From contig JAHBVX010000004.1 in the NCBI GenBank assembly GCA_019637295.1, forward strand, positions 248,001 through 312,000: 64,000 bases of DNA, written 5' to 3'. The position numbers were made by a program, and so were the translations under genes. Positions 29,334 through 44,010 of this stretch are shown one piece after another (position 1 is the first letter of the stretch; every line of letters starts with the position of its first letter). The stretch is from Polyangiaceae bacterium (GTDB lineage Bacteria > Myxococcota_A > Polyangia > Polyangiales > Polyangiaceae). Below the pieces are notes generated by a model that was not told where the DNA came from, made no database searches, and saw only the letters and a program-made list of their open reading frames with translations.

Positions 29334-29405
29334 GCGGCGCGGTCACCGGGGGGGAGGTGTGCTTCGAGGCGCCTCGGCGCGGACTCCGTGCTAGACCCGC
29401 GAGCC

Positions 29406-30233
29406 ATGAAACCGATGGACTTCCGCGGGCGTTGGGTGATGGTCACGGGCGCGTCCTCCGGGCTCGGGCTGGAGATGGCACGGCAGCTGGGTCGCGATCA
29501 CGGCGCGAACGTCGTCGCCGTCGCGCGCCGGCTGGAGCGCCTCGAGGCACTGAAGGAAGAGCTCGAGCCCGCGGGCGTGCAGGTGGTGCCCGTCACCGCA
29601 GATCTCACCCGCCAAGAGGAGGTAGACTCGGCCTTCGAGCGAGCCCTCGACGCCTCGGGTGGCTTGTACGGCGCGGTGCTCAACGCTGGGGTCACCCACT
29701 TTGGCGACTGGCGTGAGCTCGACTGGGACGGCTTTCAGCGCATGCTCGCGACGAACGTCACCTCCGTGGTGCGGCTCTCGTCCCTCGTGCTGCCGCACCT
29801 GATCGAGCGACGCGAGAACGGCGGCGTGATGCTGGTGTCCAGCATGGCGGGCCTGGCGCCGGTGCCCTACCAAGCGGCGTACTCGGGCACGAAGGCATTC
29901 CTCGTCCACTACGGCTGCAGCCTGTGGCACGAGCTCAGGGGCGAGCAGGTCTCGCTCACCACCTTCGCGCCGGGCGGGATCCAGACCGAGATGACGTCGG
30001 GGGATCGCTTCGACGCGCTGCGCGGCTGGCTCATGCCCGTGGATCGCTGTGCGCGCTCGGGGCTCGACGGGTACCGCAAGCGCAAGTACCTGCACGTGCC
30101 CGGCGTCGTGTACAAGGTGCTGTCGGCGCTCAACGGCGTGGCGCCGGAACCCTTTGCGTCGTCGCGGGTTGCAGCGCAGTATCGCGCGTCGCTCGAGGCG
30201 CTGCGCCGCGCGAAGGCGGAGAGCGGCTCGTGA
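29406..30233 (+). CDS. Short-chain dehydrogenase/reductase
   Basis: Classical SDR of 275 aa: NAD(P) site TGASSGLG (14-21), NAG in VLNAGV, catalytic Ser in LVSSMAG, and YSGTK (Tyr-x3-Lys). The C-terminal 60 residues carry the basic helical tail of acyl-ketoreductase-like SDRs. It overlaps the molybdopterin oxidoreductase by 4 bases (GTGA), so both should be cotranslated. The substrate is not predictable. Start MKPMDFRG is chosen because it directly precedes the Rossmann strand; the frame is open 18 bases further upstream. Confidence 0.9.
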   Translation: MKPMDFRGRWVMVTGASSGLGLEMARQLGRDHGANVVAVARRLERLEALKEELEPAGVQVVPVTADLTRQEEVDSAFERALDASGGLYGAVLNAGVTHFGDWRELDWDGFQRMLATNVTSVVRLSSLVLPHLIERRENGGVMLVSSMAGLAPVPYQAAYSGTKAFLVHYGCSLWHELRGEQVSLTTFAPGGIQTEMTSGDRFDALRGWLMPVDRCARSGLDGYRKRKYLHVPGVVYKVLSALNGVAPEPFASSRVAAQYRASLEALRRAKAESGS

Positions 30234-32374
30234 CGCACTTTCGCACCTGCACGCTGTGCGAGGCCATGTGCGGCATCCGTATCGAGACCGAAGGCACGCG
30301 CGTCACGTCCATCCGCGGCGACGACGCCGACCCCTTCAGTCGCGGACACATCTGCCCCAAAGCCGTGGCCCTCGGGGACATCCACGCGGACCCGGATCGG
30401 CTGCGCCGGCCGCTGATCCGCGATGGCCAGAGCTTTCGGGAGGCGTCTTGGGACGAGGCGTTCGACCGCGTGAGCCACGAGGTTCGAGCCATCCAACGCG
30501 CCAGCGGTCCGAGCGCGGTCGCGGTGTACCTGGGCAACCCCACGATACACAACCTCGGCGCCCTGTTGTTCGGACCCGATCTGGCCCGCGCGCTGCACAC
30601 CAAGCACCGCTTCTCGGCGACGTCCGTGGATCAGCTGCCGCACATGTTCGCGTCGTTCCTGATGTTCGGCCACCAACTCCTGTTGCCGGTGCCAGACGTG
30701 GATCGCACCGACTTCATGCTGATCTTCGGCGCCAACCCGGTGGCCTCGAACGGCAGCTTGATGACCGCGCCCGGGATCGAGAAGCGCCTGCGCGCCATCC
30801 GCGAGCGCGGTGGGTCGGTCATCGTCATCGATCCTCGTCGCACCGAGACGGCGAAGATGGCGAGCGAGCACCACTTCATCCGACCGGGCACGGACGCGCT
30901 GCTGCTGCTCGGGCTGTTGCATGTGCTGTTCGCCGAAGGGCGCGTCCGGCTCGGCCACCTCACGGATGCCGCCATCAACCTCGAGCGCGTGCGGGAGCTG
31001 GTGAGCGAGTTCACGCCCGAGAGCGTGGCGACGTCGACGGGCGTCTCGGCCGACACGATCCGTTCGCTCGCGAGGCGGTTCGCCGACTCGAAGCGAGCGG
31101 TCTGCTATGGGCGCATGGGGGTCAGCACCCAACGCTTTGGCGCTTTGTGCGCGTGGCTCGTGAACCTGATGAATCTCGTGACCGGTCACCTCGACGTCGA
31201 GGGCGGTGCGATGTTCACGGAGCCGGCCATCGACGTGGTGGGCCGTCCCACGCTCATCGGCCGTGGCAGCCTCGGTCGCTGGAAGAGCCGCGTGCGGGGC
31301 ATCCCGGAGTTCGGTGGGGAGCTCCCCGTCGCCGTGCTGGCGGAAGAGATGGAGAGGCCGGGCCCGGAGCGCATCGAGGCGCTGATCACGCTGGCCGGCA
31401 ACCCCGCGCTGTCCGCGCCCAACGGCCCCCGCGTCGAGCGCGCGCTCTCGGGGCTGCGCTTCATGGTGAGCGTGGACTTCTACCTGAACGAGACCACGCG
31501 CCACGCGCACGTCATCCTGCCGCCCACCGGCCCGCTCGAGCATGAGCACTACGACCTCGCGCTCCACGCGCTGGCCGTGCAGAACACGGCCAAGTACTCG
31601 CCTCCGTTGTTCGAGCCTCCACCGGACGCCCGACACGACTGGCAGATCCTGGCCGAGCTCACGCTGCGCCTCGCCCAAGGGTCGCTTCCGCGTCGCGCCC
31701 GCATCAAGGCGGAGGCGCTGGCGAAGCGCGCGCTCGGCCCCAGGCGCTTGCTCGATCTCGCGCTGCGCACGGGTGAGCGCGGCGCGGGGCTGCGTCCACG
31801 AAGCGATGGCCTGTCCGTCGCCCATCTGCTGGCTCACCCCCACGGGGTGGTGCTCGGTCCGCTGCGTCCGTGTCTACTTCGCCGCCTCGCCGCCCTCGGA
31901 CGGGTGCCGGATCTCGCCCCCGAGCCTCTCGTCGAGGACGTCGAGCGACTCCGCCGCTGGCGCGACGCCGAGCGGCCGCGCGAGCAGCTGGAGCTGATCG
32001 GCCGACGACACGTGCTGTCGAACAACTCGTGGCTCCACAACTCGCTTCGCCTGGTGAAAGGCAAGAATCGCTGCACGCTGCTGATCCACCCTGAAGACGC
32101 CCTCGCCCGTGGCCTGAGCGTTGGCTGCAGGGCGCGGGTCGCGTCCCGCGTCGGTGAGCTCGAGGTCGACGTGGAGATCACCGACGCCGTCATGCCGGGC
32201 GTCGTGAGCTTGCCGCACGGGTTTGGGCACGACCGTCCAGGCACCCGCCTCTCCGTCGCCAGCCAGCACGCGGGCGTCAGCATCAACGACCTGACGGACG
32301 AGGCCAACCTCGACGCACTGAGCGGCAACGCGGCGTTCAGCGGCACGGCGGTGAGCGTGACGCGCGCGGAGTGA
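30230..32374 (+). CDS. Molybdopterin oxidoreductase with N-terminal [4Fe-4S] cluster
   Basis: 714 aa of the DMSO-reductase superfamily. Cys7, Cys10, Cys14 and Cys42 (CTLCEAMCG, then HICPKA) bind one [4Fe-4S] cluster. Molybdopterin-binding segments follow (LIFGANPVASNGSL, VIVIDPRRTETAKMA, then IRPGTDALLLLGLLHV) and the C-terminal cofactor-binding domain begins near residue 600 (HVLSNNSWLHNS, LPHGFGH). No Tat signal, so it is cytoplasmic. It has no dedicated electron-transfer or anchor subunit next to it and is coupled to the SDR upstream, so it probably acts as a soluble two-electron redox enzyme. The GTG start overlaps the SDR stop. Substrate unknown. Confidence 0.9.
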   Translation: MTHFRTCTLCEAMCGIRIETEGTRVTSIRGDDADPFSRGHICPKAVALGDIHADPDRLRRPLIRDGQSFREASWDEAFDRVSHEVRAIQRASGPSAVAVYLGNPTIHNLGALLFGPDLARALHTKHRFSATSVDQLPHMFASFLMFGHQLLLPVPDVDRTDFMLIFGANPVASNGSLMTAPGIEKRLRAIRERGGSVIVIDPRRTETAKMASEHHFIRPGTDALLLLGLLHVLFAEGRVRLGHLTDAAINLERVRELVSEFTPESVATSTGVSADTIRSLARRFADSKRAVCYGRMGVSTQRFGALCAWLVNLMNLVTGHLDVEGGAMFTEPAIDVVGRPTLIGRGSLGRWKSRVRGIPEFGGELPVAVLAEEMERPGPERIEALITLAGNPALSAPNGPRVERALSGLRFMVSVDFYLNETTRHAHVILPPTGPLEHEHYDLALHALAVQNTAKYSPPLFEPPPDARHDWQILAELTLRLAQGSLPRRARIKAEALAKRALGPRRLLDLALRTGERGAGLRPRSDGLSVAHLLAHPHGVVLGPLRPCLLRRLAALGRVPDLAPEPLVEDVERLRRWRDAERPREQLELIGRRHVLSNNSWLHNSLRLVKGKNRCTLLIHPEDALARGLSVGCRARVASRVGELEVDVEITDAVMPGVVSLPHGFGHDRPGTRLSVASQHAGVSINDLTDEANLDALSGNAAFSGTAVSVTRAE

Positions 32375-33773: not shown

Positions 33774-35501
33774 TCAGTCCACCAGCGTGACTCGCACGTC
33801 CACGGACAGGGTCTCTTCGCCGCCGCCCACGTAGATCGTGCCGCTGGTCGGCGTCGCGTCCACATAGTTGCGACCCACCGCCACCCGCACATGATCCGTC
33901 TGCGTCAGGACTCCATTCGTTGGATCGAAGCCCTTCCAGCCGACCTGGGGCAGGTACACCTGGACCCACGCGTGCGAGGCCTCGCCCTGCGCCGCGTTCT
34001 CGTGCTTGGGACCCGTGTACAGGTACCCGCACACGTAGCGCGCGGGCACCCCGAGCAGTCGTGCCAAGCAGATGAACAGGTTGGCGAAGTCCTGGCACAC
34101 GCCGAAACGATTGCTGTACACCTCGAACGGCGTCGTGTGCAGGTTCGTGGCGCCCTGCCGGTACTCGTACTCCTCGAAGATCGTGGAGTTCATGTCCACC
34201 AGCGTGTCGAGCAGGTCGTAGCCGTTGCGTTCGACGAGCGCCATCGCGTACTCGGCGAGCTCGTGCAGCTCGGTCTCCGGCAGCTCCGCCGGCAACAGGT
34301 AGGGGTTGAGGACTTGCCGCTGCCACGGCATCCACACCAGCGGGATCGCCGAACGCTGGTGAATGGGTCGGAAGCTCAAGGGATCCGTATCCAGCGCCAG
34401 CACCTCCGCGCGGGAGTCGATGACCAGCTCGTCGAAGGGCGTCTCGAGCGCGATGCGGCGCGCTTGGTTGCCGAACACGTCCTCGTAGCGACGCTCCTGG
34501 CCATCCACGCTCACCGTCAGCTCGTACTCGACCAGCTGCTGTAGTCGGTCGTGCACCGGCTCGAGCCGCAGCAGGTGCGTGCTCCGCTCCACCGGCTTGT
34601 CGTAGCGGTAGACCGAGCGATGACTCAGCGAGAGGCGCTTGGGTTCTGCCCGACGCGGAAGCGGCACGGTGTGGACGCGCACGCTCGGCGGCGTCACGTC
34701 GGTGTTCGGGCTCACGTCCACGAGCACCTTGCCACCGCCGATCAGGAGCAGCTCGCCGGGTGCCAAGCGGCGCCAGGTCAGCGACAGATCCGCCTCCGCG
34801 GCGAGCACGTCGGACGACACGATCACGCCGCGATGGCTCCTGACCTCGCGGCGGGTCAGGTCGACGTGCAGGTCGTCGTCCCCGAAGGCCGCCTTCGAGT
34901 AGGGGGGTAGCACGTCTGCGATCAGCACCGACGCCCCCTCGCTTCGACCAGCGTACACGCACAGCTGAGTGCCGTCGCACAGCACGCTCGTCAAATTGCC
35001 GAGCTGGGCGAAAGCGTCGAACCAGCTCTGCAGCTCGACGGCGTCCGCGTCCTTCAAGCTACGGAACCCGCGAGCCGCGATGCGGTCGAGCAGCTCACAG
35101 AACACGCGCTCGGTGTCGGTGGAGCCAACGGCCTCGAAGCGCGTGTGCTCGCGCTCGGGCGGACGGCGCACGAGGCTGCCCGAGTGTGCGAACATCCAGT
35201 CACGTCCCGCGTAGGAGCGCACGAACGGCTGAGTGTTGGCGTCCGTGGGCTGTCCCCACATGGCGTGGCGGATGTGCAAGAGGAAGGTGCGCGACGCCAG
35301 GTGATCCCAGCTCTTGACCAGCTCGCTGCGGATGCTGCCGCGCCGTGGTGCCGGCTCCTTCAGCACCCCCGCCGCGGGCTCTCCGGCCGGGTAGTAGCCG
35401 AGCCCCCAGCCGTCCGGCGTGCCCTGCTGGTCGCTCAGGCAACGCAGATCGAACGACGGAGCGAGCTCCGCGTCGAAGGACATGGCGAGTAGGTTCGGCA
35501 A
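33774..35501 (-). CDS. Class II glutamine amidotransferase-like domain fused to a transglutaminase
   Basis: 575 aa. Residues about 1-265 are a YafJ-type class II glutamine amidotransferase (Ntn-fold) domain: GWGLGYYPAGEPA, HIRHAMWG and DWMFAHSGSL are its landmarks. However the chain begins MPNLLAMSFD where active members begin MCRLL, so the N-terminal nucleophile Cys is missing. Residues about 290-575 are a transglutaminase-like domain with Cys469 (GVCQDFANL), His510 (SHAWVQVYL) and Asp526 (FDPTNG), preceded by the bacterial transglutaminase N-terminal domain. It follows the two DUF2126 genes by about 60 bases on the same strand. The likely job is cutting or forming amide bonds in concert with them; this is inferred from domains. 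Confidence 0.85.
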   Translation of the reverse strand: MPNLLAMSFDAELAPSFDLRCLSDQQGTPDGWGLGYYPAGEPAAGVLKEPAPRRGSIRSELVKSWDHLASRTFLLHIRHAMWGQPTDANTQPFVRSYAGRDWMFAHSGSLVRRPPEREHTRFEAVGSTDTERVFCELLDRIAARGFRSLKDADAVELQSWFDAFAQLGNLTSVLCDGTQLCVYAGRSEGASVLIADVLPPYSKAAFGDDDLHVDLTRREVRSHRGVIVSSDVLAAEADLSLTWRRLAPGELLLIGGGKVLVDVSPNTDVTPPSVRVHTVPLPRRAEPKRLSLSHRSVYRYDKPVERSTHLLRLEPVHDRLQQLVEYELTVSVDGQERRYEDVFGNQARRIALETPFDELVIDSRAEVLALDTDPLSFRPIHQRSAIPLVWMPWQRQVLNPYLLPAELPETELHELAEYAMALVERNGYDLLDTLVDMNSTIFEEYEYRQGATNLHTTPFEVYSNRFGVCQDFANLFICLARLLGVPARYVCGYLYTGPKHENAAQGEASHAWVQVYLPQVGWKGFDPTNGVLTQTDHVRVAVGRNYVDATPTSGTIYVGGGEETLSVDVRVTLVD

Positions 35502-35561
35502 TGGACCGCGGGGAGTCTAGGTCAGTCGGCTGGCTCTCGCGAGCAAAGTGTGATGCGGCGC

Positions 35562-37235
35562 TCACTCGCGCGGAGCCGGTCGGCGCAGATCCACCCGCCA
35601 GCACCCGGACGCCGCGGTCGGTGGCGGCGCGGGACGCGGAGCGGCCGCGCCGACGCGGACGCGAGCGGCGGAGCGTGCCTGCGCCTCGGCGTTGGAGCTG
35701 GGCAGACCAGCGTACGCGCCACCGGCGGGCTGCCAGGCGTGCAGCGTGATGCGCCGCCACTGGCCGGCTTGATACCAGTCCACCTCGACGGGCTCGAGCG
35801 CCGACAGGGTTGGATGAAAGCCGGGCTGGGGCCGGTACACCCGGTAACGAACCCCCGCGACGCGCGCGCCCGACGGTAGTGGCCGGAGAGGCACCCCCCG
35901 CCCGTCGACGACCAGCGAGCCGGGATGGTCTCCGCCGTGCTCCAGCAGCTCCAGAGACTCGGTGCTGGCGTCCACCAGCCGCGAGCTCCGTTGCTCTTGG
36001 GAGGCGACGTCGCCGAAGAGTGGCCAGAACTCCAGCGCGCGCGAGATCGTGAGGGTCGCGGCACCGAGAGTCGTCTCAATCAACGGCTCACCTCGCTCGC
36101 GGACGCGTCGCTGGGCCGCGGGTCCAAGACCAAAGCCATGCGCATCCAGATCCGCCAACACCGTGTCCAGATCATCCCGCAGCACGCTGGGGAGCGCGAA
36201 GCGATCGTGCAGCTCGGCCCCCCAGTCCTTCGGCGGTTCGCGAAACGGCGCGACGCACAGGCGCGCGAGCAGCGAGCGGAACAACATGGCCACGGCCGCG
36301 CCATGCTCGGCGGTCGGAGGCATGGCCAGCGCTCTGAGCTCCACCGCACCGAGCTGCCCCTGCCGCGGATGCTCGGGGTTCCAGAGCTTCTCGATGTTGA
36401 CCTCGGCGCGATGCGAGTTGCCGGACGCGTCCACCAGCAGCGGGCCCAGGCATTGCTGCAGCAGCGTGGGGCTCGCGTCGTCCGGCAGGTGCTCGAGCGC
36501 GAGGCACAGCTCGCCGAACAGCTCACGGACGCCCTCATCGGGGCGCGGCCCTTGGCTCGCGCTACCCACACACTCCGACGCGAACCAGTAGGAGAGCGCC
36601 GGGTGCGCGTTCAAGTAGCGGACGAGGCTGGCGAGCAGCATGGGATGGCGGAAGAACGGGCTCTGCTCCGGACTCGGGCCGCCGAAGGTGATCTGGCCTC
36701 CGCCGCCCGAGTCCACTCGGCGCCCGTTGTACAGATGACGGTGAGCCGAGAGCCCAACGGCGGTCGCCGACTCGTAGCAAGCGTGCAGCGCACGCCAGTA
36801 GGACATGATGTCGGGGCACGGGTGCAGGTTGACCTCCACCACCCCGGGATCCGGCGTGACCGTGAGCCAGCAGTCCTGGGGACCCGGCGCCGGAGGCTGG
36901 AGCAAGGCCTCGGTGGCGTCGGGGGGCAGAGCGCCCTCGCTGGACTCGCCGCGGCGCCACTTCATCGCGAACGCGAAGCGAGGCTCGGGCTCGCCGCCGT
37001 AGCTGCGACCCTCCGCGCGACCGCAGGCGGCGCCCGGAGCCAACCGCGCGCGAAGCTCGAGCAGCAGCCCCTGCGCGCGCTCCTGCTTGTCGCCCCCGAG
37101 CGGGGACGAGGTCCACTCGGGCGCGACGGACTCACGCCGGGTGAAGGTCGGCTCGCCCCCGACCCAGATGTGGAGGCCATGGCGGAGCAGCTGCTGATCG
37201 TGGCTAAGCAGCTCCTCGTGCCACTCGCTGCTCAC
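35562..37235 (-). CDS. Stand-alone DUF2126 putative amidoligase paralogue
   Basis: 557 aa lacking the transglutaminase part of its upstream neighbour but matching its C-terminal half along its length: both share LxVGGEPTFxxR near the start, VTPDPGVxEVNL, GGPxxxxSPFxRxPxLLASLVRxL, and a segment of Asn-His-Arg-x-Glu (GNSHRAEVNIEKLW) as likely metal/nucleotide-binding residues. Pfam lists DUF2126 (PF09899) as a putative amidoligase. The GTG start overlaps the stop of the larger protein (GTGA), so both are made in step and may form a complex. The last 60 residues are Ala/Pro-rich. It arose most likely by duplication. Confidence 0.85.
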   Translation of the reverse strand: MSSEWHEELLSHDQQLLRHGLHIWVGGEPTFTRRESVAPEWTSSPLGGDKQERAQGLLLELRARLAPGAACGRAEGRSYGGEPEPRFAFAMKWRRGESSEGALPPDATEALLQPPAPGPQDCWLTVTPDPGVVEVNLHPCPDIMSYWRALHACYESATAVGLSAHRHLYNGRRVDSGGGGQITFGGPSPEQSPFFRHPMLLASLVRYLNAHPALSYWFASECVGSASQGPRPDEGVRELFGELCLALEHLPDDASPTLLQQCLGPLLVDASGNSHRAEVNIEKLWNPEHPRQGQLGAVELRALAMPPTAEHGAAVAMLFRSLLARLCVAPFREPPKDWGAELHDRFALPSVLRDDLDTVLADLDAHGFGLGPAAQRRVRERGEPLIETTLGAATLTISRALEFWPLFGDVASQEQRSSRLVDASTESLELLEHGGDHPGSLVVDGRGVPLRPLPSGARVAGVRYRVYRPQPGFHPTLSALEPVEVDWYQAGQWRRITLHAWQPAGGAYAGLPSSNAEAQARSAARVRVGAAAPRPAPPPTAASGCWRVDLRRPAPRE

Positions 37236-40200
37236 GGCGAGACCTCGCTCGGCTCCTCGTCCTGCTCGGGCTCCGGCGCCGGCCGATCCCCAGGAAACCG
37301 GCGAAGGTCGAGGGTGTCCGGTGAGTCCGGGTGAGGCGGCACGCGGATCATCGTCACCGGGCTCGGGGTCTGGCCGTCCCTCGTGAAGCGCTGCAGGCGC
37401 CGTGCCTCCGCCTCGAAGCGCGTGAGCGGCTCGCTGTCGTAGGCGCGCCCCTCGGGGTGCCACACGTGGTACGAGCCGGCCGCCACGCTGCGCAGCGCCG
37501 AGCGATCCACGAGCTCGATCCGCAGCGGGTGGTGAATGCCGAGTTGGGGCTGCAAGCTCTGCCAGGGAGCCCAGGCACGGAAGCGCACGCCAGCCACCCG
37601 CTCCCCCGCGATGGTGGCCGGGCGCAACGGAAGCTCGAGCTGATTGACCAGCACCGCGTAGCGATCGTCCAAGAGTCCACGCACGTGCACCTCGATGCGC
37701 TCGAGCGACGAGTCCACGAAGCGCGAGGTGCCCGTCTGAGTCGCGACCTCGCCGAGCACTGGCCACGGCTCGAGGGCGTTACGGATCTCGAGCTCGACGC
37801 CGTCCGCCTCGATGCGACCAACGACCGGGCAGCGCAGCTCGAGGAACGGTCGATAGGCGTCCTCCGGCAAGCGGATGCCCCGCTCGGCGAGGTACTCGAG
37901 CACCTGGCGGAAGTCCGCCCACAGCCAGTGCGGCAGCAGGAACCGATCGTGAAGTTGCTGTCCCCAACGGACGAGCCGCGCGCGGTACGGCGCGCGCGCG
38001 AAGGCTGCGATCAGCGCGCGAACCAGGACGACCTGAGCCGTCACCATGCGAGGATGCGGCGGCATCTCGAAGGCACGCAGCTCCACCAGCCCCTGACAAC
38101 CATGGGGCACGCTCGGATCGAACAGCTTGTCGATGCAGATCTCGCTACGGTGGGTGTTGCCGGCGAGATCCACGAGCAAGTTGCGGAAGAGCGCGTCGAC
38201 CAGCCACGGCTCGTCGTCCGGCTTGGGCTCGAAGGCGCGGGCGAGGGCGAGCTCGAGCTCGTACAGACTGTCGTGCCGGGCCTCGTCCACCCGAGGGGCT
38301 TGCGACGTGGGACCGACGAACAGACCCGAGAACAGGTACGAGAGCGAGGGGTGGTGCTGAACGAACGTGATCAGGCTGGCGAGCAGCTCGGGGCGTCGCA
38401 GGAACGGGCTCTCGTCCACCGTGGGGCCGCCCAGGGTGACGTGATTGCCACCGCCGCTGCCCGCTTGGCGACCGTCGACCAGGTACTTCTCCGCGTGGAG
38501 CCCGGAGTGGAGCGCTGCATCGAACACCGTGTCGATCAACCTTGCGTGCTCGCGCCCGCTGCGTGTTGGCGGCAAGTTCACCTCGAGCACGCCGGGATCC
38601 GGAGTGACCGAGAAGCGCTTCAGCATGTCTCCGGGGGGCGGCGCGTAACCATCGACGCGCACCTCGAGGCCAGTCTCGACGCGCGTCTCGTCGATGGCGC
38701 GCACCAGCGCCAGGAAGTCCGCTTGGCGCTCGACGGGAGGGAGGAATACCCACAGCGCGCCGGCTCTGGGCTCGACCACCAGCGCGGTGCGCACTTCGGC
38801 CCCGCCATCGTGCTCGGGCGCGACTCGGCGCGGATCCGAGCCTGCGCCCCGCGGCAACGCGGGCTTCGGCCGGTAGATGTCGGCCGAGCTCAGCGAGGCG
38901 AGCGGCAGACGCAGGCCGAGGGCGCTATCTCCCGCTACCGCATACAAGCGCTCGCGCCGAAAGCTCCACTTGGACGTCACGAAGCGACCGTCCCGCACCG
39001 CGAGTGGCAGCACCTGACCCACCTCGGAGGCGAGTCCGCGGGCGAGCGCGCGCGCCAGCTGTCGCCTCCCGTCCGTGTCCGCGAGCGCGTGGTCGAAGGG
39101 GTCGAGGTCTGGAGGGAGTCTCTCCTCCTCGAGCACGAGCGGCAGCGGATCCTCGAACGCGGGCATCAGTCCGGCCTCGACGTCGAGGCGCACGGCGAGC
39201 GCCCGCGCGAAGCGGGCCGCCGTGCCCGCGTCCGCGATGGCTTCGAGTCCGGCGCGATCGGGCCACAGCACGCCGCCGTCTTCCCGCGCGACCAGGTCGA
39301 GCGCCCAGCGCGGCAAGGGCTCGCCGGGGTACCACTTCCCCGTGCGCAAGAGCAGCAGCGCGCCGGGACACAAACGCGCCCGGAGCTCGTCCGCGAGCCG
39401 CCGCCCTTGGTCGTCCTTCGTCTCGCCCATCGCGCCGCTCCGCCACTCCGGGAGCTCGGGGTGGAGGCGTGAGTTGAACGTCGGCTCGCCGCCGACGGTG
39501 AGGCTCACGCCTTGGCGCTCGAGCAACGCGTCCACGTGATCCGACGCGGCGAGGGTCATCTGCCACACCGGCTCCTCGTAGGGTGCCGTGGGCCGGACCC
39601 GATGTCCCAAGCGCTCCACCCCCAGCGTGAACGACACGCTCGTAGCGGGATGATCTGCCGTGCCCTCGATGGGGGCGGCCTGCTCCGGCAGTGCACAGGC
39701 CGCGAGCGGCACGTGCCCCTCCCCGCACAGCAGTCCGCTCGTGGCGTCCAGTCCGATCCAGCCTGCGCCGAGCAAGTACACCTCCGCCCAGGCGTGCAGA
39801 TCCACGACGTCGCGATCGATGCCGCGCGGCTGGTCCGGGAGCATCCCCTCGTCCGTCAGCTGAATCAGGTAGCCGGAACAGAACCGCGCCGCGAAGCCCA
39901 GGCGCCGCAACACGGCGATGAGCAGGGTCGCGCTGTCGCGACAGCTCCCACGACCTTCGGTCAGCGTGCGCTCCGGAGTCCAGAGCCCGCTCTCCTCGCG
40001 GATCACGTACGAGACCCGCGCTGCCACGCGACGATTGAGCTCGACCAGCAGCGAGACGGTCGCGTCCTCGCGGGGCAAGCCGGCGACGAACGCCTCGAAC
40101 TCGGTGCCCGTGGCGTACGCTGCGCCACCCGCGCGCAGGTAGGGTTCGAGCTCCGTGCGGAGCCCGTCAGGGTACTCGAACGGCGACCGCTCGCAGCGCT

Positions 40201-40486
40201 CGTCCACGAAGAAGTCGAAGGGGTTGACGGGCCGCGCGTCGAGCGCGAGCTCGACCACGATGTCGAGGGCCTCGACTCGAGAGCCGCGCTCGAACACCGC
40301 TCGCGCCAGGTGGTTGCCATGGGGGTCGCGCTGCCAGCGCAGCACGCAGGGCTGTTCGATGGTGAGTCCGTAGCTCTCGACCTGGGCCTTGCAGTGCGGG
40401 GCCGGGCGCAGGCGAATGACGTGCGGACCGAGCGCCGCCGGCTGCGGAAACACGTAGCGACTGCGGTGACGGACGACGAGCTTCAC
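37232..40486 (-). CDS. Transglutaminase-DUF2126 putative amidoligase fusion
   Basis: 1084 aa, the family's usual length (about 1100). Residues 1-~290: bacterial transglutaminase N-domain followed by the transglutaminase core with Cys182 (GRGSCRDSATLL), His231 (LHAWAEVYL) and Asp247 (IGLDATSG). Residues ~330-1084: DUF2126 putative amidoligase, with LTVGGEPTFNSR, VTPDPGVLEVNLPPT, GSGGGNHVTLGGP and GNTHRSEICIDKLF. It has no signal peptide, so it is cytoplasmic. Relatives (COG1305 plus COG4196) occur beside ATP-grasp/alpha-E proteins in many bacteria, and a role in peptide ligation or modification was proposed from genome analysis; no ATP-grasp partner is in this window. Confidence 0.9.
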   Translation of the reverse strand: MKLVVRHRSRYVFPQPAALGPHVIRLRPAPHCKAQVESYGLTIEQPCVLRWQRDPHGNHLARAVFERGSRVEALDIVVELALDARPVNPFDFFVDERCERSPFEYPDGLRTELEPYLRAGGAAYATGTEFEAFVAGLPREDATVSLLVELNRRVAARVSYVIREESGLWTPERTLTEGRGSCRDSATLLIAVLRRLGFAARFCSGYLIQLTDEGMLPDQPRGIDRDVVDLHAWAEVYLLGAGWIGLDATSGLLCGEGHVPLAACALPEQAAPIEGTADHPATSVSFTLGVERLGHRVRPTAPYEEPVWQMTLAASDHVDALLERQGVSLTVGGEPTFNSRLHPELPEWRSGAMGETKDDQGRRLADELRARLCPGALLLLRTGKWYPGEPLPRWALDLVAREDGGVLWPDRAGLEAIADAGTAARFARALAVRLDVEAGLMPAFEDPLPLVLEEERLPPDLDPFDHALADTDGRRQLARALARGLASEVGQVLPLAVRDGRFVTSKWSFRRERLYAVAGDSALGLRLPLASLSSADIYRPKPALPRGAGSDPRRVAPEHDGGAEVRTALVVEPRAGALWVFLPPVERQADFLALVRAIDETRVETGLEVRVDGYAPPPGDMLKRFSVTPDPGVLEVNLPPTRSGREHARLIDTVFDAALHSGLHAEKYLVDGRQAGSGGGNHVTLGGPTVDESPFLRRPELLASLITFVQHHPSLSYLFSGLFVGPTSQAPRVDEARHDSLYELELALARAFEPKPDDEPWLVDALFRNLLVDLAGNTHRSEICIDKLFDPSVPHGCQGLVELRAFEMPPHPRMVTAQVVLVRALIAAFARAPYRARLVRWGQQLHDRFLLPHWLWADFRQVLEYLAERGIRLPEDAYRPFLELRCPVVGRIEADGVELEIRNALEPWPVLGEVATQTGTSRFVDSSLERIEVHVRGLLDDRYAVLVNQLELPLRPATIAGERVAGVRFRAWAPWQSLQPQLGIHHPLRIELVDRSALRSVAAGSYHVWHPEGRAYDSEPLTRFEAEARRLQRFTRDGQTPSPVTMIRVPPHPDSPDTLDLRRFPGDRPAPEPEQDEEPSEVSP

Positions 40487-40538: not shown

Positions 40539-40856
40539 TCACGACAACAGTCGCGCAGCAATCTCGAAGAAGAGCTCGCGACTCCTACCGCAGCCTCGGC
40601 ACTCCACGCTCAGCACACGCAGGCTGCGCCCACCGCTCACCACGGCGCGGTGGTCGAGCACGCGCAGCGGATCGCCGCAGACCGGACAGGGATGGCCCCG
40701 ACCGTGAGCCTCGACTTCGGAGGCCGAGCCTACCGGGATTGGCGTGTCGGGCGCGCCGCCTGGCTCCTTCCGTGCGGCTTGCTCCCGCTTGTGGACGAGC
40801 TTGTCGAGCGCCCGCTCGTCCGCCCGTCGCTGGGTACGCGCTCGCTTCTTCGTCAT
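40539..40856 (-). CDS. Small zinc-ribbon protein
   Basis: 105 aa. The N-terminal 50 residues are a charged coiled-coil-like region (KKRARTQRRADERALDKLV). The second half is a zinc ribbon: CPVCG at about 57-61 and CRGCG at about 86-90, with a strand pair between. Its start overlaps the stop of the GMC oxidoreductase gene by 4 bases, so it is the last gene of that operon. The coupling suggests an assembly or regulatory role; no family name is known to me. Confidence 0.7.
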   Translation of the reverse strand: MTKKRARTQRRADERALDKLVHKREQAARKEPGGAPDTPIPVGSASEVEAHGRGHPCPVCGDPLRVLDHRAVVSGGRSLRVLSVECRGCGRSRELFFEIAARLLS

Positions 40857-42430
40857 GTCCCGAAGTGCGCGGCGCGCACGATGTCCGCGGCCACGAAGCT
40901 GAATGCCATGATGGTGAGGCTCGGATCCACGCTCGGTGGCGAAGGGAACACGCTCGGATCGGCGACATACACGTTGTCCGCCCCAAAGACGCGATGCTCC
41001 GCGTTCACCACGGCGTCCGCAGAGCGCAGGCCCATGCGCGCACCTCCCCCGGGGTGCGGTGCGGCCAGCACGTTCCGCGCGGGCCGGAGCACGATGGCGC
41101 CGACCGCTCGATCGATGTCAGCAGCCCGTGTGATGCGTGTGTCCTCCGCGTCACCGAACAAGAGCTCACTGGCCCCAACCTCGAACAGCAGGCGTGCCTG
41201 CTTGCGCCAAGCGTCGCGGATCCGCTCGGCGTTGCCACCCGAGAGTGGCACGGACACGCGTCGTCGCCCCGACTCGAGCCGAATGGTCCCGGGCTCGATG
41301 TCGTCGATCCAGGCGATGGTTCCGCCCAGCCGCGGCATCTGTCGCATCAGCGCGCTGTGCGCTGGTCCGACGCCTGGCAGGATCGCCGCCAGGGTGGCCG
41401 GTTGCAGCTGATTGGCCATGAGCAGGTAGCCGCCTTCGCGGTAGCGACCGTGCTCGGCGTGCCCGAACACGCGCTCGGGTCCGTCGTAGCGACCGAGGCG
41501 AAACTCTTCCACGCCCCAGGCCGCGGGGATGTTGCGCCACTGGATGACGTCATCCGGAAAGATCGCGTGGACCAGAGGGCACGGGTTGCAGAAGAACCCC
41601 TGTCCAAGCGCGGGCAGCCGCTCCGGGAGCCGCTGGCGCAGCAGGAACTCCGGCGTGGCAAACCCTCCCGCCGCGACGACGACCGCCTTGGCGTCGATGT
41701 CGAGCCTGCGCCCCGAGCTCCGACCCGTGGGTCGATCGAGGATGCTGCAGCCAAGCCGCTTGGCTCGACGCCCGTCGAAGGCGAGTTGCTCGGCGCGACA
41801 GTCCGCGTACAGCCTCGCTCCGGCAGCGAGGGCCCGGGGCACGTAGGTCACCAGCTGGCTCTGCTTGGCGTCGTACGCGCAACCCTGCATGCAGTGACCA
41901 CTGGCGACGCACGCCTTGCGAGCCTGCGGAACCCGCGCCACGTGCCAACCCAGCCGCTCGGCCCCATCGTGCAACAGCTGGTTCATGCGATTGACGTAAG
42001 CGTCCGTCGCCGGGTGTACGTTCAGGTCCTGCTCGATCTCCGTGAAGTGACGCGCCAGGAGCTCCGAGTCATGTCCTTCCATGCCCAGGGAGTGCCACTG
42101 CTGCAGGCGATCCCGCGGGAGTCGGTAGCTGTCGGCCCAGTAGTGGACGCTCGCGCCGCCGACGTTGTTGCCATAGGTGAGGTTCACCGAGGCATCCTCG
42201 CTGGCGTGCAGCCCCCGCCCTCCGTCGATGCGCGCGAGCATGTTCACCTCGCGCTGATCGAAGTCGTTCTTGGTGTAGTAGCCGCCTTGCTCCACGATGA
42301 CTACGTCCAGGCCCGCCTCGGCGAGGCGCGCGGCTGCGGACGCTCCGCCGCAACCCGAGCCGATCACCACGACGTCACAGCGCTCCTCGACGTCGGCGCC
42401 GGCGAGCTCGGGCCACTGGCGGACCGTCAC
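40853..42430 (-). CDS. GMC-family FAD oxidoreductase
   Basis: 525 aa with N-terminal dinucleotide fold GSGCGGASAAARLAEAG, then the GMC N-domain (NNVGGASVHYWADSYRLP), a Cys-rich insert (CVASGHCMQGCAYDAKQS) as in gluconate/fructose-type dehydrogenases, and the C-domain with HPGGGARMG and PSPPSVDPSLTIMA, where the active-site His/Asn sit. It oxidises an alcohol or sterol with FAD. It overlaps its upstream neighbour, a gluconate 2-dehydrogenase subunit-3-like protein, by 4 bases, as expected for a two-subunit dehydrogenase; no cytochrome c subunit is nearby. Substrate unknown. Confidence 0.92.
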   Translation of the reverse strand: MTVRQWPELAGADVEERCDVVVIGSGCGGASAAARLAEAGLDVVIVEQGGYYTKNDFDQREVNMLARIDGGRGLHASEDASVNLTYGNNVGGASVHYWADSYRLPRDRLQQWHSLGMEGHDSELLARHFTEIEQDLNVHPATDAYVNRMNQLLHDGAERLGWHVARVPQARKACVASGHCMQGCAYDAKQSQLVTYVPRALAAGARLYADCRAEQLAFDGRRAKRLGCSILDRPTGRSSGRRLDIDAKAVVVAAGGFATPEFLLRQRLPERLPALGQGFFCNPCPLVHAIFPDDVIQWRNIPAAWGVEEFRLGRYDGPERVFGHAEHGRYREGGYLLMANQLQPATLAAILPGVGPAHSALMRQMPRLGGTIAWIDDIEPGTIRLESGRRRVSVPLSGGNAERIRDAWRKQARLLFEVGASELLFGDAEDTRITRAADIDRAVGAIVLRPARNVLAAPHPGGGARMGLRSADAVVNAEHRVFGADNVYVADPSVFPSPPSVDPSLTIMAFSFVAADIVRAAHFGT

Positions 42431-43017
42431 GCTTCACCCCGCTGCTTGGCGGCGAGCAAGCTGCGGTAGCGCAGGGTGCTCGGCGGGAGCTTCTCTTCCT
42501 TGATCCAAGGGCCGTCATAGCCAATGGCGCCCCACGACGCTTCGGCGGAGTAGTAGCAAAGCATGGTGAGCTGCTTGAGGGCGGTGGCGACCTGGACGAA
42601 CACGTCGCGCTTGGACGCGAGCATCGCCCGAAGCACCTCAACGCGACGCCGCCGCGAGAGTGACGTGAAGCGACCCGGCGCACCGAACAGGATGGGCGCG
42701 TGCTCGACCACCTGGAGCGCGGCCCGCAGATCACTCTGGGTGTGCACGTCCGCGCCCCACAGCTGCTCGTCGATGCGCTGAACGACGCCTGCGTCGTCCG
42801 CCGTGGGCAGCCCTTCTCCCCCATCGATCAGCGCGTCGACGAGCGACGTCACGATGGCTTGCTCCTTGTCACCGAGCGCGAGCAGCACCTGCGCCCCGGG
42901 AGGGTAGCCGTGCGTGAACCAACGCAGCGAACCAGCCGCGACGAGCGCGACCGTGCCCACGGCCCCGAGGCCGAGCGCGCTGCGGCGGGAGAGCTGCACC
43001 AGGGCACGGTAAGCCAC
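42427..43017 (-). CDS. Gluconate 2-dehydrogenase subunit 3-like protein, Tat signal
   Basis: 196 aa. Starts MAYRALVQLSRRSALGLGAV, with Arg11-Arg12 in SRRSALGL followed by a hydrophobic segment: a twin-arginine export signal. The rest is helical and matches the small subunit of membrane-bound gluconate-type dehydrogenases in size and position. Its stop overlaps the GMC gene start by 4 bases. If this subunit is exported, the FAD subunit may travel with it, since the GMC protein lacks its own signal. Confidence 0.8.
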   Translation of the reverse strand: MAYRALVQLSRRSALGLGAVGTVALVAAGSLRWFTHGYPPGAQVLLALGDKEQAIVTSLVDALIDGGEGLPTADDAGVVQRIDEQLWGADVHTQSDLRAALQVVEHAPILFGAPGRFTSLSRRRRVEVLRAMLASKRDVFVQVATALKQLTMLCYYSAEASWGAIGYDGPWIKEEKLPPSTLRYRSLLAAKQRGEA

Positions 43018-43044: not shown

Positions 43045-44010
43045 TCAGTGGCTCGCGGCCGCGGCGCGTCGCAGGCGGTCCGCCACCGCGGCGCCAACTC
43101 CCACTTCGGGTGGTAGTGACGCGACGATGACGTCGCAGTGGGCGTCGAGTTCCCGCAGGCTGCGGTACAGGTTTCGCGCGAGCAGGATGGGATCCGACTC
43201 GAGCTCGATGACGTGGACCGCCTGCGCCGGCCGGGGTCTGCCTGGCGGAAGCAACGCGCCCACCCGGGCGCCCTGAGCGGCGATCCGCGCCACCGCCTCC
43301 GCGAACTGGTCCCGCTCCACGAGCACCAGGCGCGCTTCGGGTGCGTAGTGCGCCGGCAGAGTGCCCGGCGCTCCGCTCGCCGTGTCACTCGCGTCCTCGA
43401 TTGCTCTCGTCGTGGCGGCGCAAAGCTCGTCGAGGGTGACGCTTCCGCGGCGCAGCAAGCGGCCGGGCTCCGAGAGGCAGTCCACGATGGTGCTCTCGAC
43501 ACCAACCTCGCAGGCTCCGCCGTCGAGCACGAAGTCCACGTCGCTGCCCAAGTCCGTCCGTACGTGTTCGGCGGACGTGGGACTCACGCGACCAAAGCGG
43601 TTGGCCGACGGCGCCGCCAGGGGGCTGCCGAAGGCTGCGATCAGTGCGCGCGCGAGCGGGTGGCCGGGAACGCGCACGGCGAGGGTGTCCAGACCGCCGC
43701 TGACGAGCGGGCTGAGCCGTGCACTGCGCCTGACGACGCACGTGAGCGGCCCTGGCCAGAAGCGCTCGCCCAACTCCACCGCCATGGGCGGCAGCTCGAC
43801 CCAGTCGCGCATCATCGCGAGGCTGGCGAAGTGGGCGATCAACGGGTGCCGAAGCGGGCGCCGCTTCACCCGAAAGATGCGCTCGACGCCGTCGTCGCGG
43901 GTCGCGTCGGCGCCGAGGCCGTAGACCGTCTCGGTCGGGAAGGCCACGAGCCCGCCGGCGCCCAGCACGCGGCAGGCCTGATGGATTCGTTCGAGCTCGT
44001 CGGGCGTCAC
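43045..44010 (-). CDS. tsaC: L-threonylcarbamoyladenylate synthase, Sua5/YwlC type
   Basis: 321 aa. Makes threonylcarbamoyl-AMP from Thr, bicarbonate and ATP, the first step of the t6A modification of ANN-decoding tRNAs. The YrdC domain (1-~205) has FPTETVYGLGADA, RIFRVKRRPLRHPL (the Lys-x-Arg pair), SGGLDTLAVRVPGHP and APSANRFGRVSPT. The C-terminal ~100 residues form the Sua5 domain that caps the active site (PGTLPAHYAPEARLVLVE). Cytosolic, in all bacteria essential or nearly so. The gene is alone in its stretch and runs the same way as the GMC operon. Confidence 0.92.
   Translation of the reverse strand: MTPDELERIHQACRVLGAGGLVAFPTETVYGLGADATRDDGVERIFRVKRRPLRHPLIAHFASLAMMRDWVELPPMAVELGERFWPGPLTCVVRRSARLSPLVSGGLDTLAVRVPGHPLARALIAAFGSPLAAPSANRFGRVSPTSAEHVRTDLGSDVDFVLDGGACEVGVESTIVDCLSEPGRLLRRGSVTLDELCAATTRAIEDASDTASGAPGTLPAHYAPEARLVLVERDQFAEAVARIAAQGARVGALLPPGRPRPAQAVHVIELESDPILLARNLYRSLRELDAHCDVIVASLPPEVGVGAAVADRLRRAAAASH

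Follow-up and report, generated by a model that had tools for sequence, protein, structure and literature searches.

Gene content of the locus

We analyzed a 64-kb window from the genome of a Polyangiaceae bacterium (assembly GCA_019637295.1), the window being the whole stretch of 64,000 nucleotides at positions 248001-312000 of contig C20 in a 7.65 Mb genome (G000). It contains a locus of three genes, here called A, B, and C, which is a split and extended variant of a known but uncharacterised set of transglutaminase, DUF2126, ATP-grasp, and alpha-E proteins. The open frames of A, B, and C are all found on the minus strand within 33774-40486 (Table 1). Pfam searches identify Bact_transglu_N, Transglut_core, and DUF2126 in A (E 1.3e-296 for DUF2126), DUF2126 alone in B (E 2.9e-113), and GATase_4 (E 2.8e-65, 220 bits) together with Bact_transglu_N and Transglut_core in C, and these matches are far beyond chance. 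The match of B falls into two stretches, the best covering profile positions 388-805 and the other 42-126. Both the frames and the Pfam results confirm the single-strand arrangement of a transglutaminase-DUF2126 protein, a DUF2126-only protein, and an amidotransferase-like/transglutaminase fusion that had been proposed from the letters of the window (hereafter, the sequence-only reading).

The overlap of A and B, also proposed in that reading, exists, but it is only four bases long. The first in-frame start of B (37766) falls within A, and the first 177 codons that follow it have no DUF2126 match. The GTG start at 37235 shares four bases with the TGA stop of A and gives a 557-aa product, so the apparent 535-base overlap was rejected as an artefact that arose because the first start codon had been taken. 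The GTGA overlap suggests that A and B may be translationally coupled. Gene C starts with TTG at 35501, 60 bases past the B stop, and its product begins with MPNLLAMS, the same residue at which most homologues begin.

Table 1. Features of the A-B-C locus (positions in the window)
Feature	Position	Strand	Product	Description	Basis
Gene A	37232-40486	minus	1084 aa	transglutaminase (N-terminal region + core) fused to DUF2126	Pfam, alignment, AF2 model
Gene B	35562-37235	minus	557 aa	DUF2126-only paralogue, middle shortened, GGGNH loop = GGGGQ	Pfam, alignment, tree
Gene C	33774-35501	minus	575 aa	Ntn (class II amidotransferase-like) domain + transglutaminase	Pfam, alignment, fold match
GTGA overlap	37232-37235	minus		B start / A stop	sequence

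DUF2126 has a predicted glutamine-synthetase fold

The transglutaminase triad of A (Cys182-His231-Asp247) is intact in the window, and in an alignment of 28 A proteins the Cys, His, and Asp are kept in 26, 27, and 28, respectively. Transglutaminase-type activities of A and C are likely. A sequence search of solved structures with A returned nothing beyond a weak transglutaminase match, and literature searches on DUF2126, and on COG4196 combined with transglutaminase, found no report. An AlphaFold2 model of A residues 290-1079 (pLDDT 89.2, pTM 0.91) was compared with known structures. In Foldseek, the first 28 ranks are occupied solely by glutamine synthetases and gamma-glutamylmethylamide synthetase (GmaS), with E values from 0.014 to 0.17, and VIA-align places all 50 listed rows in the glutamine-synthetase superfamily (Z up to 10.8, rmsd 3.9 A, 246 aligned). 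DUF2126 thus appears to share the predicted fold of glutamine synthetase and GmaS, an assignment that is structural; unlike these enzymes, DUF2126 is linked to a transglutaminase and has no detectable profile similarity to them. Together with the Glu, Asn, and Arg residues conserved in both A and B, the model bears out the suggestion that DUF2126 is amide-ligase-like, and we consider it likely that A and B are ligases.

The top two Foldseek rows for the DUF2126 model are GmaS (E 0.014), and this leads to a different view of the substrate. A and B could be GmaS-type gamma-glutamylamide synthetases that capture amines, and the transglutaminases could release or exchange the amine, so that the genes would serve nitrogen scavenging with no tag on a protein or peptide. 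Two published observations agree with it: expression of a Burkholderia cluster with related domains depends on NtrC, according to an excerpt of PMC5491218, and ATP-grasp/alpha-E domains are associated with urea metabolism domains in metagenomes, according to an excerpt of PMC3597751. However, the GmaS rows are no clear improvement over ordinary glutamine synthetases, and the joint retention of several ligases and transglutaminases is left unexplained. We regard nitrogen scavenging through small molecules as the less probable account of the whole locus, at perhaps a quarter of the weight of belief.

B represents a second DUF2126 family

In a quick tree built from 66 domains (56 of B, 10 of A), the two kinds fall into separate clades with SH-aLRT support of 100, each spanning phyla (27 of the 66 rows carry no size label, since the motif pattern missed them). 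On account of these well-supported clades, an origin of B by recent local duplication was rejected; the B family is sister to A's putative ligase domain and has members in Pseudomonadota, Planctomycetota, and Myxococcota. The window's B is also a shortened form: the starts of its GGEPTF and TPDPG motifs are 101 residues apart, compared with 296 in the window's A. Among the rows in which the spacing is readable (39 of 80 B and 22 of 28 A), it is 218-265 residues in 26 B and 94-122 in the other 13, while all 22 A proteins have 295-378. The shortened B proteins are not strictly one group in the tree, where the long B of locus L109 sits among them.

Residues E28, E134, N136, R276, E278, E299, and R301 of B are kept in 55-56 of 56 rows, and these include the putative catalytic Glu and Arg of DUF2126; the putative catalytic residues are accordingly retained in both paralogues. 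On the other hand, B carries Gln in place of His in 49 of the 56 rows, and several residues conserved in A are nearly fixed as something else in B, among them Asp671 as Asn (26/27), Asp786 as Glu (27/27), and Glu807 as Arg (25/27). Glutamine-synthetase active sites lie between subunits, and B could on this ground be a pseudo-ligase, a non-catalytic partner in a mixed oligomer with A. The His-to-Gln change, the Asp671-to-Asn and other changes at A-specific residues, the shorter middle of the window's form, and the four-base overlap with A would all fit such a partner. But the counted Glu, Asn, and Arg residues are kept more strictly than drift would lead one to expect, and 40 of the 80 B loci described below have B without A in the fetched flanks, so a pseudo-ligase is a possible but rather doubtful reading of B. 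The changes in B may instead mark divergence toward another role or substrate, with a loss of activity still possible.

The Ntn domain of C lacks the amidotransferase nucleophile

The Ntn domain of C has Pro2 where Cys2 is expected and HSG where HNG is expected, while the triad of its transglutaminase domain (Cys469-His510-Asp526) is intact. We read the same positions in 54 C fusions, which are the distinct proteins in the fetched loci (56 before identical rows were removed) and not a random sample. The transglutaminase triad is kept in all 54, and residue 2 is Pro in 45, Ser in seven, Thr in two, and Cys in none. Exposure of residue 2 is uncertain in three of these nine Ser/Thr proteins (L017, L180, and L181), where the codon before it is not a usual start codon. 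Position 107, the middle residue of the H-N-G motif and presumably the oxyanion Asn, is Ser (31), Ala (11), or Gly (3) in the 45 Pro2 proteins, the window's C having Ser107; in the nine non-Pro proteins it is Asn (6), Asp (2), or Ser (1). Arg78 (53/54), Thr128 (54/54), and Asp129 (54/54) are conserved, and we take Arg78 and Asp129 to be glutamine-binding residues of class II amidotransferases. In the midpoint-rooted tree, a branch supported at 100/100 separates all Pro2 proteins from the others, and the Ser/Thr versus Pro difference in the Ntn domain is explained by one putative change on this tree. The C protein of G115 (locus L234), a member of the window's family, has the Thr2/HNG type and is the only one of Thr type among the family C proteins read; it groups with Planctomycetes proteins in the tree, a possible case of horizontal transfer.

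The sequence-only reading took C for an Ntn amidotransferase, in which the domain would hydrolyse glutamine and pass ammonia to the DUF2126 ligases. The strong GATase_4 match, the Foldseek matches of the C model to 1te5 (E 1.4e-16) and EgtC, based on a moderately confident model (pLDDT 68.9), and the kept Arg and Asp of the presumed glutamine site speak for this function, and C is like the class II glutamine amidotransferases of the YafJ/1te5 and EgtC type in its fold and in these residues. It differs from them in that the fusions carry Pro, Ser, or Thr at position 2 and never Cys (n = 54), and that the window's clade has Pro2 in 45 of 45 and Ser, Ala, or Gly for the presumed oxyanion Asn in 45 of 45. 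Five stand-alone amidotransferase loci found in other genomes by the same search were examined, and the four that were read all have Cys2 and HNG. Activity of C as a class II amidotransferase was rejected on these grounds; the Ntn domain should be catalytically dead in the window's clade, amidotransferase activity of C is unlikely, and a role in feeding ammonia to the ligases is very improbable. C should not be annotated as a glutamine amidotransferase. The clean Ser/Thr-versus-Pro split shows what the Ntn domain can no longer do, and this split and the second ligase family are the most useful new facts from the locus.

Beta-lactam synthetase is a precedent for a dead amidotransferase domain retained in an amide-forming enzyme, its class II amidotransferase domain having likewise lost the catalytic Cys, and its structures are among the Foldseek rows for the C model. 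The partner domain is a synthetase in beta-lactam synthetase, whereas it is a transglutaminase in C. As a tentative and rather speculative proposal, the Ntn domain with N-terminal Pro could be a reader of gamma-glutamyl or glutamine ends that is wired to the transglutaminase, giving a binding-plus-cleaving or binding-plus-transferring module in an amide-tagging pathway that has no proteasome-type partner. A bolder form of this proposal is that the N-terminal proline could itself be catalytic, as a secondary-amine nucleophile or as a base.

ATP-grasp and alpha-E genes accompany the locus across genomes

The ATP-grasp and alpha-E genes that occur with DUF2126 genes in other operons are not in the 64-kb window, as the sequence-only reading noted; this absence is true only of the window, because a genome-wide search finds both on another contig, C4. 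The circularly permuted ATP-grasp type 2 gene is at C4:183031-184158 (E 1.6e-161; PF14403 and PF04174) and the alpha-E gene at C4:184268-185164 (E 1.5e-77; PF04168), and a third, stand-alone transglutaminase adjoins them (locus L089). C4 is 204 kb long, and these genes lie about 18 kb from its end.

In a sample drawn from the phylum Myxococcota, DUF2126 is present in 8 of 112 genomes. ATP-grasp and alpha-E were tested in 16 of them, and both are present in 8/8 genomes with DUF2126 and 0/8 without. Among the 108 genomes of the window's family, DUF2126 is found in 50 (G131 and G173 by short weak matches only, that of G173 being under the cut-off), ATP-grasp in 63, and a C match extending into the Ntn domain in 38. 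In another 17 of the 55 genomes with a C match, it is chiefly the transglutaminase part that is present, and these are not counted among the 38. ATP-grasp occurs in 46 of the 50 family genomes with DUF2126 versus 17 of the 58 without. It also occurs in 36 of the 38 genomes with C, all 38 of which have ATP-grasp or DUF2126, and C and ATP-grasp lie within 13 kb of each other in 24 of the 38. In the genomes behind the B loci, 35 of 80 of which were queried, ATP-grasp is present in 34 of 35, compared with 2 of 14 control genomes.

A search of bacterial genomes with the alignment of B proteins confirmed 302 relatives, and the best 80 loci were used for gene order. Many of these loci are cut by contig ends and many of the genomes are drafts, so missing neighbours are weak evidence. 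The order A-B-ATP-grasp-alpha-E-C in one direction is found in 12 of the 80 loci, a Planctomycetes form in which C, alpha-E, and ATP-grasp diverge from A-B in two, and A-B-C in three. A stands directly before B in 19 of the 25 loci with a B shorter than 640 aa (contig ends truncate three of the 25) and in 6 of the 55 with a longer B. In the window's family, B occurs in six genomes (G000, G121, G056, G160, G133, and, as a fragment, G139). The A-B-C row recurs in G121, of the same genus, and in G056, of the same family, and ATP-grasp is on another contig in both. In G022, A diverges from the genes for alpha-E, ATP-grasp, and C; in G026 and G085, B is missing and the other four (A, ATP-grasp, alpha-E, and C) are clustered. 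Given this synteny and the co-occurrence of ATP-grasp, the best interpretation of A-B-C in the window is the five-gene row in split form.

Several expectations of the sequence-only reading hold in these comparisons: ATP-grasp and alpha-E travel with these genes across genomes, co-occurrence is conserved in relatives, and two paired DUF2126 chains make a variant layout, although one that is not unique to this genome. That A, B, and C are chance neighbours with no joint role is disfavoured and scarcely credible, since co-occurrence and synteny hold across phyla, even though A and C lie within 13 kb of each other in only 13 of the 26 family genomes having both.

Three further arrangements were seen in the loci. 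L141, L154, and L158 hold two transglutaminase-DUF2126 paralogues and B, that is, three DUF2126 proteins per locus. B is divergent from a small stand-alone transglutaminase in 9 of the 80 loci (L129, L134, L136, L143, L150, L152, L157, L163, and L178). In L097 (G166 C1:3357812-3361107, in a 16 Mb genome) the A homologue is split into two overlapping frames, by a frameshift or an assembly error.

Relation to known systems and proposed function

Iyer et al. in 2009 reportedly predicted that a set of circularly permuted ATP-grasp, glutamine synthetase-like ligase, alpha-E, and transglutaminase proteins serves as a peptide-synthesis or tagging system. The window's genome has all of its parts, namely transglutaminase-DUF2126, ATP-grasp (PF14403), alpha-E (PF04168), and a stand-alone transglutaminase. 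It differs from that set in splitting the genes over two contigs and in having two extra members, a second ligase that consists of DUF2126 only (B) and a nucleophile-less Ntn domain joined to a transglutaminase (C). Several phyla contain the ATP-grasp/alpha-E/transglutaminase/DUF2126 set; what is added here is the predicted glutamine-synthetase fold of DUF2126 and a second ligase family that has ATP-grasp in nearly all genomes queried.

The Anbu operon consists of Anbu (a proteasome-like subunit), ATP-grasp, alpha-E, and transglutaminase, as described in excerpts of PMC6376114 and PMC5666114. The C4 locus is like it in having the last three side by side. It is unlike it in that the window's genome has no proteasome-family match, the only Ntn-fold protein seen tied to the set being C. 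PF00227 (proteasome family) gave no match in G000 or in four other genomes of its family (G121, G056, G061, and G115); the five other Myxococcota genomes queried have matches to the family, and 10 of 14 control genomes match. Should the set require a member with an Ntn fold, C is the sole candidate observed. In the excerpted parts of PMC6376114, the role hypotheses for the Anbu operon are called unconfirmed as of 2017, Anbu is reported to be raised under nitrogen starvation and to have no peptidase activity, and the Yersinia ATP-grasp protein is reported to free phosphate from ATP.

We propose that the locus is half of a split, known but uncharacterised set, combining amide ligases, transglutaminase-type hydrolases or transferases, and an inactive Ntn domain serving to bind glutamine or gamma-glutamyl ends; this is our best explanation, which we favour by slightly better than an even chance. 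The full set would comprise transglutaminase-DUF2126, circularly permuted ATP-grasp, alpha-E, and transglutaminase, with the other half (ATP-grasp, alpha-E, and the third transglutaminase) on C4. The DUF2126 domain of A, and likewise B, would be an ATP-dependent amide ligase of glutamine-synthetase fold, and these two would act with the ATP-grasp ligase to attach amino groups to carboxylates of the glutamyl type. The resulting amides would be hydrolysed or transferred by the transglutaminase domains of A and C with their Cys-His-Asp triads, and the non-catalytic Ntn domain of C would bind a glutamine or gamma-glutamyl end and offer it to its own transglutaminase domain. The sequence-only reading is thus supported in part. 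The peptide or protein that it named as the target of amide making and trimming may be correct, and small-molecule amides fit equally well.

The physiological setting may be nitrogen limitation, by analogy with the Burkholderia cluster with related domains. In an excerpt of PMC5491218, a B. cenocepacia cluster that encodes DUF404/DUF407, DUF403, and both small and large transglutaminase proteins is NtrC-activated and sigma-54-dependent, and an excerpt of the metagenome study (PMC3597751) groups ATP-grasp/alpha-E domains with urea metabolism domains.

A number of observations weigh against the proposed function. For the fold, Foldseek with the A model has no match at E<=0.001 (best 0.014), and hhalign of DUF2126 against five GlnA-type proteins of these genomes gives a probability of 0.1% (A+B) or 0.3% (B); with neither a profile match nor such a Foldseek match, the pairing of DUF2126 residues to the synthetase active site was made by eye. 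B could be inactive, given its His-to-Gln substitution and missing central segment, and it stands by itself within the fetched flanks in 40 of the best 80 loci. Within the window's family, 24 of the 50 DUF2126 genomes have no fused C, 12 of the 38 genomes with C have no DUF2126, and 17 genomes have ATP-grasp without DUF2126. For the physiology, a sigma-54-like site was found nowhere near A, B, or C, the one match in the whole window being far off (1.52 expected), and the 'large' Burkholderia protein is known here by that description in the excerpt of PMC5491218, its identity as DUF2126 being an assumption.

Genes flanking the locus

The upstream and downstream neighbours of the locus show no conservation in 35 related loci, apart from one weak GMC match. 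A 105-aa protein (40539-40856, minus strand) with a CPVC...CRGC pattern, zinc-ribbon-like by eye, is encoded between a GMC oxidoreductase and A; its gene overlaps the GMC stop in ATGA, and it has no match among the 35 related loci. The GMC oxidoreductase adjoins a gluconate-2-dehydrogenase subunit 3 protein (40853-43017, minus strand), and the two may form a two-subunit dehydrogenase next to the locus. A Sua5/YrdC gene lies upstream of this pair at 43045-44010, and on the plus strand 29388-32374 encodes a short-chain dehydrogenase and then a molybdopterin oxidoreductase.

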